Below are positions 41,141 through 46,420 of a DNA stretch of 64,000 nucleotides, piece by piece. Source of the DNA: Gammaproteobacteria bacterium (lineage in GTDB: Bacteria; Pseudomonadota; Gammaproteobacteria; Steroidobacterales; Steroidobacteraceae); assembly GCA_016874235.1 (NCBI GenBank), contig VGUJ01000009.1, positions 1-64,000 on the forward strand, in the 5' to 3' direction. How positions within the stretch are numbered: position 1 is the stretch's first letter; every line of letters starts with the position of its first letter. A program made the translations under genes and the position numbers. Under the pieces are notes generated by a model. The model was not told where the DNA came from, searched no databases, and was given only the letters and a program-made list of their open reading frames with translations.

Positions 41141-42175
41141 TCAACCGTACCCCGCCCGCCACTCTGCCTTGTAGGCGATGCCGAGCATGATGAGACGGTT
41201 GAGTAGATCTTGATAGCCGATCCCGGCGGTGAGCGCTGACTGAGCAAAGTCCTCAGCTTCGCCGATGTTGGGGTTGGCGTTCGCTTCGAGCACGAACACT
41301 TCGCCGTTGTCTCGGACACGAAAGTCCATGCGCGCATAACCTGAGAGCCCGAGTGCACGATAGATACGTCTGGATAGGCGATCGAGCGACGCCTCGACGG
41401 CCGGCGGAAGGTCGGTGGCCGAACGCCAATCGATACCGTATTTCTCTTGGTATTTTCGATCCCACTTTATCTTTCGCGTCGCGATGGTCGCCTGATTTCC
41501 TGGCAAAGATCCAAAGTGCAGCTCACGCACCGGCAGCCGCGTGAGTCGTTCGTTACCGAGCACCCCTACGTAGACTTCGCGCCCGGCGACGTATTCCTCG
41601 ACGAGTGCATCGGTACCGACTTGGTCATGGATGAACGCGACACGCTCCTTGAGATGCACGGCATCTTCCACGACCGACGCCTGTGCAATGCCGAGCGAAG
41701 CGTCTTCAGTCGCCGATTTGACGAAGAGCGGATAGCGCATCTTGTTCGGCGGACGAAACTTGATGCCTTTACGCAGCAACGCAAACTGCGGCGTCGGAAT
41801 TCGGTGATAGGACAACAACTGCTTCGTGAGCGGTTTGTCTCGCGAGAGCAGTAAGCCGCGGGGATTACACCCCGTATAAGGCTGCTGCATCAACTCGAGG
41901 AAGGCGACGACATGCTGGTCGTAGGTGACGATCCCGTTGAATTCTTCGAGCAGGTTGAAAACGATATTGGGCTTCCAATCGGCAATCGCCGCACGGAGCT
42001 CGGTGAGACTGTCGAGCACACCCAATACCCGTACCTCGTGCCCCGCTTGACGGAGCGTACGAATCACGTCGTACTCCGTACGCCACTCCGACATCTGATC
42101 TTCGGTCAAGCCCGACACGTCTTCGGGCGGCACCAGCGTCTCGTGAACGACCACCAGAACTTTGAGCTGCTTCAT
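41141..42175 (-). CDS. ATP-grasp ligase, D-Ala-D-Ala ligase-like
   Basis: The 344-residue protein has the Ddl fold order: N-terminal alpha/beta domain (QLKVLVVVHETLVPPEDVSG), a substrate-linked NLLEEFNGIVTYDQHVVAFL and YTGCNPRGLLLSRDKPL, ATP-grasp core (PLFVKSATEDASLGIAQ, VEEYVAGREVYVGVLGN), and metal-binding VFVLEANANPNIGEAEDFAQ. True Ddl enzymes have a SPG/LPG-type motif after the last metal ligand and an HG in the first domain; both are missing here, so the ligated substrates are probably not two D-alanines. Its start overlaps the stop of the HEAGH metallopeptidase (ATGA), which argues for a coupled ligase-peptidase function. Confidence 0.85.
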   Translation of the reverse strand: MKQLKVLVVVHETLVPPEDVSGLTEDQMSEWRTEYDVIRTLRQAGHEVRVLGVLDSLTELRAAIADWKPNIVFNLLEEFNGIVTYDQHVVAFLELMQQPYTGCNPRGLLLSRDKPLTKQLLSYHRIPTPQFALLRKGIKFRPPNKMRYPLFVKSATEDASLGIAQASVVEDAVHLKERVAFIHDQVGTDALVEEYVAGREVYVGVLGNERLTRLPVRELHFGSLPGNQATIATRKIKWDRKYQEKYGIDWRSATDLPPAVEASLDRLSRRIYRALGLSGYARMDFRVRDNGEVFVLEANANPNIGEAEDFAQSALTAGIGYQDLLNRLIMLGIAYKAEWRAGYG

Positions 42176-43206
42176 AACGTGAACCGCATCGTCTCCCCGC
42201 TCAGGGCGGCTTTCGCCAACCTGCGAATCGTCCGCTCGGCGGCAACGCGACGCTCTCGTACAGAACCTCGCAGCCACAACCGACGCTCGCGCGCGCGCTC
42301 GACGGCGAACTGCACGAGTTGCTCCGCACCATAACGGTCGATCGTGCTGTGCGCCATCACATGCCGGATCAGATCAGACCGAAGGGCGCGAAGGCAACTA
42401 TCGGCACGGCGATGATGATGATTCGGACCACGCGGCCTGACTTTGGACAACCCACGGTCGAGCGTCCGATCAATCATTGAAAAATCACAGTCGACCCGGC
42501 GCTGTAAATGGCGTCGGTAGTAATCGCGTAACGATAAATCGTTGGAGGCGACCGGATCGATCCGGCTGGCCGTACGAATCGCTGGCCGACGGCCGCGAAT
42601 ACTCCGCATCAAGTCATCCATCGCCTTGAGCTTGGATAACGCAGGCGTACCGGCGTAGCGGTGCCGCCAATTGGAGCGTGGCGCCAGCCAAACCGCAAAG
42701 GTCTCGGCGAAATCTTCTGCCGGATGCGCTTGGGCATACCAGCCATCGAGGTGAGTGACGAATTCGCGGCTCGACGGGTCAGCCACATAACGCGTCGGGT
42801 ACGGCAGCGCAGCCGACCCAAACGTATCACGCCAAAGTTTTCGTCTCCGGAGTCGAAAGGCTGTATCGACAACATGGCCGGCCTCGTGTCGCAAAATACG
42901 CATCAAGCCCGCCGCATTACCGCCCTCCACCGAGCTCGACATACGACGCTCGAGACGTTCGAGGCGCGGATGCGCAAGATAAAACGGAATCGCGATCCCT
43001 GGCACACCATCGGGTGAAAACCACTCGTCCGAAAACCAAAAGTGCGGCTCCAACAAAATGTCGCGCGCCGCGAGTTCATCACGCAGACGACGGATGGCGC
43101 GTTGCAACACGGCACGCCTCGGCAGACCGAGATGCAGATCGCGAAATCTCAGGCGCAGGAGTTGCGCGTCGGAGTAACGGGCCCAATGAGGGGACTTCCG
43201 TCTCAC
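42172..43206 (-). CDS. Putative zinc-binding metallopeptidase (HEAGH)
   Basis: The 344-residue protein has a zinc-binding motif RILRHEAGHVVDTAFRLRRR (HEXXH near residue 108) and a later THLDGWYAQAHPAEDFAETF, where the Glu of DFAETF is the likely third ligand, as in gluzincin-like peptidases. The N-terminus (RYSDAQLLRLRFRDLHL) is shared with a family annotated only as putative zinc-binding metallopeptidase. No signal peptide is visible, so it is cytosolic. The C-terminal third is very Arg/His-rich (RPRGPNHHHRRADSC). It lies three bases after the ADP-ribosylglycohydrolase gene and overlaps the ATP-grasp gene by four. Confidence 0.82.
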   Translation of the reverse strand: MRRKSPHWARYSDAQLLRLRFRDLHLGLPRRAVLQRAIRRLRDELAARDILLEPHFWFSDEWFSPDGVPGIAIPFYLAHPRLERLERRMSSSVEGGNAAGLMRILRHEAGHVVDTAFRLRRRKLWRDTFGSAALPYPTRYVADPSSREFVTHLDGWYAQAHPAEDFAETFAVWLAPRSNWRHRYAGTPALSKLKAMDDLMRSIRGRRPAIRTASRIDPVASNDLSLRDYYRRHLQRRVDCDFSMIDRTLDRGLSKVRPRGPNHHHRRADSCLRALRSDLIRHVMAHSTIDRYGAEQLVQFAVERARERRLWLRGSVRERRVAAERTIRRLAKAALSGETMRFTL

Positions 43207-43209
43207 GGC

Positions 43210-44106
43210 TCAGGTTTCGTTATCTAGCCGAACAAGCACTTCCGCGAGCAACGCATCGGCGAGCTCTTCGATCATGGGTCGACCGGCAAGCATCGCGAGC
43301 CATCCGGCTGGAATCGACTCCACGCCAAACACCGCGCCGGCAAGCTGTCCGGTCGTCGCACCGTACACATCGGCATCGCCACCCTGATTGACCGCACGCA
43401 AGACGGCATCCTTCCAATTCTTTGCACCGTGCATGGACTCCTTGACGATCGCGAGCGCACGGGCGGATTGCGAGTCGATACGAGCACCGATCGGGCCCGC
43501 TGATCCCGAGTTCGAGAAATCATCGAGCGGCTTACCGCGTAGCGCACCATGCATCATCGATGCAAACTCGTGCAGCGCATCGAGCGTCGCAGCCTCTCGA
43601 GAGGTCACGCGCATCATCGGCTCAAGATCTGCCAACAAGGCCCGCTCGTCGGCGTAATGCCACAGCGCAAGCGGAGCGACGCGAACCAGCGCATCAGCGC
43701 CATCTCGTATCTCGACCGACGCGCTCCCCTCGACGAGGGCGCGACTGACGCTCGCGGTGATCCCGAGGCATTCTCCAGAGATCGATCCCTCACCCTCGCG
43801 TTGCCAACGTCGGAATCGAGTCAACTGATCGGACGGATCGCATCCTCGACACTCGAGAAGACTGCGACCGAGCAACAACGCCATCGCCGTGTCGTCAGTC
43901 CAAGACCCCGGGGCGAGATCGAAGGGTCCGCCGCCGATGAGATCGCGAATGGGCGAGAAACTCCCCGGTCTCGCCCACTGCGCGGGTGCAGCAAGCGACT
44001 CCCCAACGGCAAGACCCAGCAACGCACCTCGAAAACGACTGCGCAAGCGAGCGACCGTAGCGAGAGCCTCCCCGTCGAATTCAGGAATGCCCGCGTCGGG
44101 AGTCAC
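43210..44106 (-). CDS. ADP-ribosylglycohydrolase (DraG/ARH) family protein
   Basis: The 298-residue helical protein has the ARH layout: [20 protein letters not shown], then [13 protein letters not shown] (first metal ligands), and late [19 protein letters not shown] (second metal ligands). Two positions differ from typical members: the first motif has GES instead of GDA, and the final Thr after the second Asp (GGDTDT or GGDADT in relatives) is Val. The dimetal site may therefore be altered. The family removes ADP-ribose from proteins or related molecules. It starts inside the ttcA stop (ATGA). Confidence 0.85.
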
Positions 44107-44918
44107 TCGTCGCTCGCTTCGCTCATGACCCGAAGGCCTGAAAAATCGAACAGCGTGGGATCGGCCAAATGCCCGGCCTCGACGCTACGGATGGCAGAAA
44201 AAATAGATTCTGTACGACCAGGATGTACGCGCTCCCACTCTTGCAACATTTGTTTGATCGTGCGGCGCTGCGCGTTGTCCTGAGAGCCACAGAGTTTGCA
44301 GGGAATGATCGGAAACTGCCGCGCGCGAGCGTACCGCTCGATATCTCGCTCGGGCACGTAGGCGAGCGGACGGATGACGATGTGCCGCCCGTCTTCGGAG
44401 CGCAGCTTGGGCGGCATCGCCTTCAGGCGACCGCCGAAGAACATATTGAGGAAGAGCGTCTCGACGATATCGTCACGATGATGACCCAGCGCCACCTTGG
44501 TCACCCCGTTTTCCGACGCCCACCGATAGAGCGCGCCTCGCCGCAGTCGGGAACAGAGCCCGCACATCGTCTTGCCCTCGGGGATGACACGCTTGACGAC
44601 CGAGTACGTGTCTTGCTCGATCACATGGAAAGGCACGCCGAGTGCGGTGAGGTACTCGGGAAGCACATGCTCCGGAAAGTCAGGCTGCTTTTGATCGAGG
44701 TTGACCGCGACCAACTCGAATTTCACCGGCGCGCTTCGTTGCAACGACATCAAGATATCGAGCAGCGTGTAGGAATCTTTGCCGCCAGAGAGGCAGACCA
44801 TGACCTTGTCGCCCTCCTCGATCATCGAATAATCCTCGATCGCCTTGCCGACGAGGCCCCTGATATGAGCCTGCAGCTTCCGCGAGGTGTTCGATGATTG
44901 GCGTACGGGCATGTCCAT
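44103..44918 (-). CDS. ttcA: tRNA 2-thiocytidine(32) synthetase TtcA
   Basis: The 271-residue enzyme thiolates cytidine 32 in tRNA. It has the PP-loop [18 protein letters not shown], the Fe-S/catalytic cysteines [26 protein letters not shown] and the later [16 protein letters not shown]. The start at 44918 shares one base with the stop of the upstream M32 gene (TGATG). Longer readings to 45056 add unrelated sequence. Confidence 0.96.
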
Positions 44919-46420
44919 CAGGCTGCAGTCTCCAAATATTTTCGTTCGAGGTATCTCAAGGCCGAAGTCGATCCCAAAGGTTTTCCCGTGGCACTTTCCA
45001 TCAGCTGAGCCATCGGGAGCCGCGCTCCTTGCGAGTGAACCGCCTCTCTTAACCACGCGCGAAGCCCTGAGAAGTCGCCGGCTGTGATCTGCTCGTCGAG
45101 CTGCGGAAGATCACGCCGCATCTGCTCGGAGAGTTGCGCCGCGATGGCACCCCCCACGACATACAACGGAAAGTATCCAAACGAGCCACTCGCCCAGTGT
45201 GCATCTTGCAGTACGCCGTCGGCATCACTTGCCGGCACGAGATCGAGACGCTGTCTCATTCCCTCGTTCCAAGCCTCGCGTAAATCACGGACTGCCAAGG
45301 TGCCTGCAAGCATGCGGCGCTCGAGATCAAACCTCAGCATGACGTGCAACGGATAGGTCAGCTCATCGGCATCGACGCGTATGGCACTGCGCCTGACTCG
45401 AGTCAGCTGTCGATAAAGATTGTCCTCGGACCACTCAGGCCCCGTCACGCCAAAATGCTTCTCGAGCAGCGGACGAAGATATCGAACGAACGCGCGGGAG
45501 CGCCCGAGAATCATTTCCAGTAGCAAGGACTGACTTTCCTCAAGCGCCATCCCGCGAGCCTGGCCCACCGGCTGATCGAGCCAATCCTTGGGTAGGCCGA
45601 GGTCGTAGAGCGCATGTCCCGCCTCATGCAACGCGCCGAGCAGCGCAATGAAAGGATCCTGTCGCGACACGCAGTAAGTGATGCGGATATCGCCTGGAAT
45701 TCCCTCGGTGAACGCATGAGAGGCCTCATCGATACGGCCGCGATCAAAGGGAAAACCGATCGCGCGCAAGACCTCGCTGATGAGTGCGCGTTGCTGGCGC
45801 GCCTTGAACGTACCCACCAAAGGCATGACGGGCGCCGCATGCTGATGCTCGATCACTTGACGGACGAGTCCCGGCAAACGGCGAGCGTACGCCTTGAACA
45901 AGGCATCGATGATCTCCGAGCTGACTCCGGCACTGAACTCCTCGACTAACGCATCGTAGGGTTCAAGCGATCGTGCCTGCCCGAGCAGCGCCGCTTTGTC
46001 GCGAACGAGCCGAACGACCTCCTCAAGGTAGGGCGCAAAGAGTTCAAACTTGTTCTGTTGCCGCGCCTCGCTCCACGCCGCTTCCGCTGCGGCCGTGGCC
46101 CGAACGAGCGAGTTGAGCAAAGAGACCGGCATCGCGATCGCGTGATCACGTTGGCGACGCATTTCACGAAGGTTCGCGATCTCCCATTCTTCGAGCGAAC
46201 CCTGACCGGCCACTGCGCGCTCGATGAGCCGGCTGACCTTGGGAGAGGTCAGCACGGCGTGACACTCCGTTTCGAGCGCCGCGAGCTGCTCACCCCGACC
46301 CGAGGCGCTCGCCCGCGGCATCATGACCGCGGCGTCCCAGCGCAACAAAGAAACGGCTCCGCGAAGGGCGTGCAACCGTTTCCATTCGAGCTCGAGTTGT
46401 TTGTAGGGTGATAACGCCAT
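44918..46420 (-). CDS. M32-family carboxypeptidase (Taq-type)
   Basis: The 500-residue cytosolic metallocarboxypeptidase has the M32 zinc site [19 protein letters not shown] (HEXXH near residue 265), the third ligand in [17 protein letters not shown], and the family segment [20 protein letters not shown]. Most relatives read HESQS at the third-ligand motif; here the His is Glu (EESQS) while the ligand Glu remains. It starts [20 protein letters not shown]; readings further upstream to 46699 are rejected. TGATG couplings join it to MAPEG upstream and ttcA downstream. Confidence 0.93.

Follow-up and report, generated by a model that had tools for sequence, protein, structure and literature searches.

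A Ddl-fold ligase and a zinc peptidase encoded as a linked pair across bacterial phyla: a candidate add-and-remove unit

Why should an amide ligase and a metallopeptidase be encoded so closely that the start of one gene overlaps the stop of the other, and what might the two enzymes do together? The question is raised by the window analysed here, a stretch of 64,000 nucleotides (contig VGUJ01000009.1, positions 1 to 64,000 of the forward strand) from GenBank assembly GCA_016874235.1, a gammaproteobacterium of the family Steroidobacteraceae, in which a ligase gene (LIG) lies directly downstream of a peptidase gene (PEP). An original prediction, made from the letters of the window, had placed both enzymes in a shared pathway together with an adjacent ADP-ribosylglycohydrolase-like (DraG-like) gene, and had described ligase and peptidase as "fused in translation"; the overlapping reading frames stand, but no fused protein exists. 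The features of the pair are given below, where "named loci" are the best 80 of 463 relatives obtained when the PEP alignment by itself was used as the query.

41141..42175, minus strand: LIG, a Ddl-fold ATP-grasp amide ligase of 344 amino acids, start ATG
42172..43206, minus strand: PEP, a zinc peptidase of HEAGH type, 344 amino acids, start GTG; its C-terminal domain is basic
42172..42175, minus strand: the 4-base overlap of LIG start and PEP stop
42874..42888, minus strand: the HEAGH zinc-site motif, residues 107-111 of PEP (HExxH in 80/80 named loci)
42703..42726, minus strand: the HPAEDFAE motif, residues 161-168 of PEP (HPxED[FY]AE in 80/80 named loci)
41249..41254, minus strand: Glu308-Asp309 of LIG, equivalent to Ser281-Leu282 of Escherichia coli DdlB

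The LIG-PEP pair is a core unit spread over at least five bacterial phyla, and its linkage is far beyond chance. By title, the named loci comprise 31 from Pseudomonadota, 31 from Planctomycetota, 8 from Nitrospirota, 6 from Acidobacteriota, 3 from Myxococcota and 1 unplaced. LIG is the next same-strand gene downstream of PEP in 75 of the 80, with a 4-base overlap in 61 of those 75 (gene starts in the named loci were chosen by a script); the other five contigs stop 79-382 bases past PEP, and the longest of these stretches, the 382 bases of L048, might have shown a LIG start and did not. Six whole-genome surveys, each using a score limit, place an adjoining LIG beside 84 of 89 close PEP loci (the window being counted twice); named loci and survey genomes partly overlap (L049, for example, lies in G332), so that the counts are not additive. 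Among 275 gammaproteobacterial genomes, PEP was found in 13 and LIG of at least 387.9 bits in 12, all 12 adjoining PEP, while the thirteenth PEP lies at the edge of its contig; below these 12, LIG-like scores drop to 148 bits. PEP is present in 31 of 119 genomes of Planctomycetota, where 23/23 PEP above 360 bits have an adjacent LIG; in 14 of 79 genomes of Nitrospirota, with 17/17 loci linked; in 11 of 112 genomes of the phylum of L102 (titled Myxococcota), with 11/11 loci linked and one LIG cut by a contig end; in 6 of 299 genomes of Pseudomonadota, with 6/6 linked (window included); and in 27 of 119 genomes of Acidobacteriota, where 15 of 19 loci above 370 bits have an adjacent LIG. Seen from the ligase side, 23 of 26 planctomycete LIG above 340 bits are linked to PEP. 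Close homologs of both are mostly single-copy per genome. That the two enzymes work as a single functional unit is supported by the six surveys: the adjacency search over many genomes proposed at the time has been run, and the outcome is the opposite of homologs that are mostly unlinked. Outside the Steroidobacteraceae-type operon, no cluster of same-strand neighbours accounts for more than 3 of 95 loci, so no third constant gene emerged, and no small open reading frame (ORF) conserved across phyla was found within 1 kb of the pair in 75 loci; together these results fit a substrate encoded elsewhere.

As a side observation on distribution, the 299 sampled Pseudomonadota include, besides the window genome, only five carriers of the pair (L214-L218), whose genomes of 7-9 Mb all belong to a single genus (f209/g320).

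The two genes also appear to share a history. In quick gene trees of 51 loci, for which the support is that of the Shimodaira-Hasegawa-like approximate likelihood ratio test (SH-aLRT) only, the PEP and LIG trees have 27 of 48 splits in common, 16 of them strong, against a mean of 0.2 and a maximum of 4 in 500 label shuffles, and none of 380 pairs of strong splits is in conflict. Steroidobacteraceae form a single clade in both trees, with support of 100, and Alphaproteobacteria are placed elsewhere in a wider LIG tree. The pattern is read as movement of the pair between phyla as a unit. The nearest neighbours of the Steroidobacteraceae are not the same in the two trees: in that of LIG they are Planctomycetota, at a support of 81, and in that of PEP they are Acidobacteriota together with Planctomycetota, at a support of 80; the donor to this family is therefore not settled.

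What the ligase may do is suggested by the residues that it has kept and those that it has lost. Its predicted structure (AlphaFold2, mean predicted local distance difference test score, pLDDT, of 91) finds its best solved matches in Ddl, at a template modelling score of about 0.75, and Pfam assigns Dala_Dala_lig_C at an E-value of 4e-29; however, the NCBIfam cut-offs for Ddl are missed (TIGR01205, 120.2 bits vs 245.65; NF002378, 127.6 vs 243). The RimK-type model PF08443 gives E 0.13 and 12.3 bits, below its cut-off of 21, and the R2K_2 model E 0.14. When 51 LIG rows are aligned by sequence with the DdlB of E. coli, whose numbering is used here, the ATP/Mg and acyl-site residues K97, K144, E180, E187, R255, D257, E270 and N272 are kept in 51/51 rows; K97, K144, E187, D257, E270 and N272 we take to be the ATP/Mg residues, and the E15-S150-Y216 triad together with S281-L282, at the second D-Ala site, are presumably the substrate residues. 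The E15 column is mixed (E in 10/51), S150 is replaced by A or G in 51/51, Y216 is Y in 20/51, with another tyrosine, Tyr242, in 48/51, and G276 is mostly Asn. S281-L282 has become Glu-Asp, with E in 49/51 rows and D in 46/51. The earlier statement that the Ddl substrate motifs are absent is thus borne out by alignment. Because the ATP/Mg residues are kept and the D-Ala pocket is lost, LIG is predicted from its sequence to be an active ligase whose amine partner is not that of Ddl; and because the second site is rebuilt with an acidic Glu-Asp, that amine is probably cationic, with lysine-like amines among the first candidates, or without the free carboxylate of D-Ala. A Pfam match alone is accordingly unsafe ground for calling such ligases D-Ala-D-Ala ligases.

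The Pfam matches of PEP are to a zinc peptidase family only, Peptidase_Mx (PF15887), at E 3e-7 and 30.4 bits against a cut-off of 27, over residues 104-174 only. With HExxH and HPxED[FY]AE in every named locus, PEP has at the sequence level the HExxH and downstream Glu that define a gluzincin, and HPAEDFAE likely holds the third zinc ligand. No match to PEP was returned by Foldseek at E 0.001, and the search of solved structures by sequence gave only weak matches, the best at E 0.25. In the VIA comparison of the predicted structure (mean pLDDT 89.5), the Z-scores of the catalytic half, residues 28-206, are up to 9.7 for lethal factor (over 140 residues), 7.6 for PPEP-3 and 4.9 for 3dl1, which we take to be MtfA; the modelled likeness would indicate the type of fold, not the function. 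No dipeptidase family is listed in that comparison, which excludes nothing, the C-terminal domain being barely tested there. This domain has a positive net charge in 51/51 rows, with a mean of +12. By hydropathy, no membrane-like segment was found in LIG or PEP (51 rows each), and both are predicted to be cytosolic. A search of phage and plasmid records, with the viral contig collection outside it, gave no match to the PEP of Rhodopirellula baltica, a cultured carrier, at E 1e-5, and no PADLOC defence model matched LIG, PEP or the DraG-like protein at E 0.01.

The following model is constructed from what was observed: the two genes are linked and inherited together, the catalytic residues are retained, the D-Ala pocket has been lost, and by hydropathy there is no membrane-like segment. 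With ATP and Mg2+, LIG would activate a carboxylate to an acyl phosphate and then join an amine to it, and PEP would cut the bond made by LIG, or trim the same substrate. The target would most likely be a protein or longer peptide, modified at an end or on a side chain in the manner of RimK/RimB. LIG and PEP may then constitute a cytosolic two-enzyme add-and-remove unit, RimK/RimB-like and built from unrelated enzymes; we favour this reading tentatively, rating it somewhat short of probable, and it is by inference that PEP is given the reversal of LIG, that the kind of amine is chosen and that a protein is made the target.

Several observations weigh against this reading. Four of the 19 close acidobacterial PEP loci are without an adjacent LIG: two have a LIG 4 and 18 kb off on the same contig, one is a second copy in a genome that also has a linked pair, and the fourth belongs to a genome with only a 278-bit LIG elsewhere. 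A planctomycete LIG is without an adjacent close PEP in three genomes, one in which no PEP was found (G406) and two with only a distant PEP elsewhere in the genome (G352 and G420). Within the genus of the window, PEP has no counterpart by matching in 7 of 23 other genomes, including one with a completeness rating of 100%, and only a fragment of it is present in an eighth; the pair is on this account accessory and dispensable. A second, more distant PEP clade (PEP2, at most 320 bits) is often alone, no ligase having been detected at 15 of 23 PEP2 loci in the stretch read. Finally, a small peptide product would fit the data nearly as well as a protein target.

The remaining PEP2 loci show varied arrangements. 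A second ligase version, LIG2, of 259-273 bits lies directly downstream in L227, L228, L233 and L239; a LIG of 175-193 bits stands tail to tail in L137, L229 and L231; and L139 has a 236-bit LIG 3 kb off. In the wider LIG tree, LIG1 (43 rows) is grouped with LIG2 and the L139 ligase at a support of 95, with tandem Ddl-like ligases, the nearest relatives of LIG, and true Ddl outside. The acidic pair is usual in LIG1, LIG2 retains the second acid, and most tandem relatives have neither, although Asp occupies the second place in several and Glu-Asp is present in one; the acidic pair would therefore seem, from the alignment, mostly but not strictly to accompany a peptidase partner. As an observation in its own right, tandem pairs of Ddl-like ATP-grasp genes occur in 14 of 119 Planctomycetota genomes (L240-L249, L159; e.g. 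L244:5640-8150). Both tandem loci that were scanned, L244 and L248, have a GNAT acetyltransferase gene downstream, and L248 has a lysine-2,3-aminomutase-like radical SAM gene upstream; by BLAST cluster, L242 and L249 each have a gene resembling it.

These relatives bear on the strongest alternative, a small-molecule cycle in which LIG would build a dipeptide or amide metabolite, perhaps for storage or as a compatible solute, that PEP would degrade again. Ddl-fold enzymes mostly join small molecules, and the cluster for the osmolyte N-acetylglutaminylglutamine amide (NAGGN) offers a precedent, in that its ligase and M42 peptidase are thought to make and break down the product; the neighbours of the tandem genes (GNAT in two loci, the aminomutase-like gene in one) look like small-molecule chemistry as well. 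Set against this are the modelled resemblance of the PEP catalytic half to protein-cutting gluzincins, the extra basic domain, and the lack beside the pair of any other constant gene outside one lineage. We regard such a cycle as rather unlikely.

The order of the genes permits another scenario, in which PEP would first cut a protein or peptide and LIG would then cap the new end. In every named locus where the two adjoin, the peptidase gene comes first, and most of these loci have the 4-base overlap; however, the order of genes does not dictate that of reactions, and no substrate gene is linked to the pair. Processing followed by capping is for these reasons considered unlikely.

It has also been proposed, in the original prediction, that the ADP-ribosylglycohydrolase contributes a removal activity to the pathway; read in this way, it might strip ADP-ribose from the same target. 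The neighbours to be considered here are the following.

43210..44106, minus strand: DraG-like gene, 298 amino acids, start GTG, a lineage add-on
44103..44912, minus strand: ttcA, tRNA 2-thiocytidine synthetase, operon neighbour (459 bits vs a cut-off of 272)
44918..~46420, minus strand: M32 metallocarboxypeptidase, operon neighbour (PF02074, E 1.9e-146; the start at 46420 was picked by eye)

The coordinates, motifs and spacings first described for the three genes were all reproduced: a 4-base overlap of LIG and PEP, a 3-base gap between PEP and the DraG-like gene, and a 4-base overlap of the latter with ttcA. The M32 gene, 5 bases ahead of ttcA, heads the operon and makes it a run of five genes, and a convergent S9 peptidase gene lies past the LIG end. 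Pfam was used to scan the window neighbours (DraG-like, ttcA, M32, S9 peptidase and MAPEG), and it assigns ADP_ribosyl_GH (PF03747) to the DraG-like protein at E 1e-39 and 137 bits. When sought with a widened profile (a narrower one, A3, misses the copy at L139), a DraG-like gene adjoins the pair in 24 of the 80 named loci. All 24 are from Pseudomonadota, either Steroidobacteraceae or not placed further by their titles, with ttcA also in 20 of the 24 and M32 in 17 on the stretch covered; no DraG-like gene was found in the covered flanks of paired loci of Planctomycetota, Nitrospirota, Acidobacteriota or Myxococcota. TDD and DxDT are, we assume, the metal ligands of ADP-ribosylglycohydrolases. 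The window copy has TDD, but the last Thr of its DxDT is Val; among operon-type copies DxDT is DxDV or worse, TDD is lost in several, and the full metal set is found in none of those aligned. In five relatives of the window (L029:3330-4814, L035:6096-7652, L061:2755-4326, L042:2036-3820 and L034:5570-7054), the gene upstream of the LIG-PEP pair encodes, by Pfam, a PTP-SAK dual-specificity phosphatase fused to an ADP-ribosyl domain. Of 25 ORFs of at least 450 amino acids (some loci being counted in two sets), 23 have the phosphatase motif HCRxGxGR. The phosphatase half seen in these relatives is missing from the window protein, whose gene looks like a fading remnant. The candidacy of the DraG-like gene as a general third core member was rejected, as it belongs to one Pseudomonadota operon type only and has an incomplete metal site.

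A place for the hydrolase in the pathway is thus not supported, given its absence beside most pairs, the incomplete metal residues and an intact motif that belongs to the phosphatase half, and we consider it distinctly improbable. Two of ten planctomycete PEP2 loci, L139 (7771-10515) and L146 (7855-9692), have a separate ADP-ribosylglycohydrolase directly upstream with complete metal residues, a small and post hoc count that nonetheless keeps the link alive, and in certain firmicutes such a gene is flanked by R2K ATP-grasps, according to the account of those families in PMC4431377.

Maturation of a graspetide-like ribosomal peptide, in which LIG would tie a precursor and PEP remove its leader, has in its favour that ATP-grasp ligases and proteases co-occur in clusters of this kind, in the examples treated by PMC8939145 and PMC13039773. 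However, the flanks of the pair, covered to 1 kb in 75 loci, show no small ORF conserved across phyla, and LIG is of the Ddl type and scores poorly with the RimK model, which makes this very unlikely. That LIG is an ordinary spare Ddl beside an unrelated peptidase is scarcely credible: its Pfam, PDB and fold matches are to Ddl, but it reaches only half the Ddl cut-off (120 vs 246 bits), its substrate residues are lost, a separate Ddl lies on another contig of the same genome (E 4e-53), and the linkage to PEP is constant.

No publication on the LIG-PEP pair was found by a literature search that did not reach the main amidoligase survey, that of Iyer and colleagues from 2009, which may mention it. 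As both enzymes are small and mostly single-copy, a new protein modification or metabolite could come to light from their study.

Returning to the favoured add-and-remove unit, its nearest relatives among known enzymes and systems can be compared part by part. LIG shares with Ddl the fold and the ATP/Mg residues, but E15, S150, Y216, S281 and L282 are changed. PEP resembles Peptidase_Mx and the M34, PPEP and MtfA-like gluzincins in its HExxH and downstream Glu and, as far as the modelled comparison suggests, in its catalytic half; it differs from them in having no membrane-like segment, an extra basic domain and no sequence relative of solved structure. The R2K ATP-grasps likewise adjoin an ADP-ribosylglycohydrolase gene, and a protein target is proposed for them in PMC4431377, although the R2K_2 model gives E 0.14 on LIG and the R2K context as described in section 7 of that paper includes no zinc peptidase. 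The Anbu operon also joins an ATP-grasp to a peptidase-like protein, with tagging proposed in the account given by PMC6376114. It comprises Anbu, alpha-E and a transglutaminase, however, none of which is among the scanned neighbours at the window locus. Tubulin tyrosine ligase, too, is an ATP-grasp enzyme. It and the MATCAP/TMCP carboxypeptidases present a ligase and a HExxxH metallopeptidase acting on the same protein end, as PMC10499314 relates, but the system is eukaryotic and MATCAP compares with PEP at a Z-score of only 2.8, so that the likeness is one of analogy. Closest in organization is RimK-RimB, in which, by the description in PMC12239564, a cytosolic ATP-grasp ligase and a peptidase share one operon and RimB reverses its partner by taking off the glutamates that RimK adds to a ribosomal protein; there the ligase is of RimK type and the peptidase a retropepsin-like aspartic one, whereas here a Ddl-type ligase meets a zinc peptidase. 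According to the same paper, loss of the ligase gene relieves the peptidase defect in the case of rloC and rloA. A ligase-peptidase pair of the same kind seems to have formed from unrelated enzymes. It is possible, though on balance doubtful, that the pair represents a third independently evolved switch for putting amino acids on proteins and taking them off, besides RimK/RimB and the tubulin ligase and carboxypeptidase, with a remodelled Ddl as its ligase and a gluzincin as its peptidase, moving between phyla as a two-gene unit and represented by two parallel versions (PEP1-LIG1 and PEP2-LIG2). Ligase-peptidase pairs of the RimK/RimB kind tune proteins through the addition and removal of amino acids, and a compact pair of that sort would here be kept together in Steroidobacteraceae as well as in Planctomycetota, Nitrospirota, Acidobacteriota and Myxococcota.

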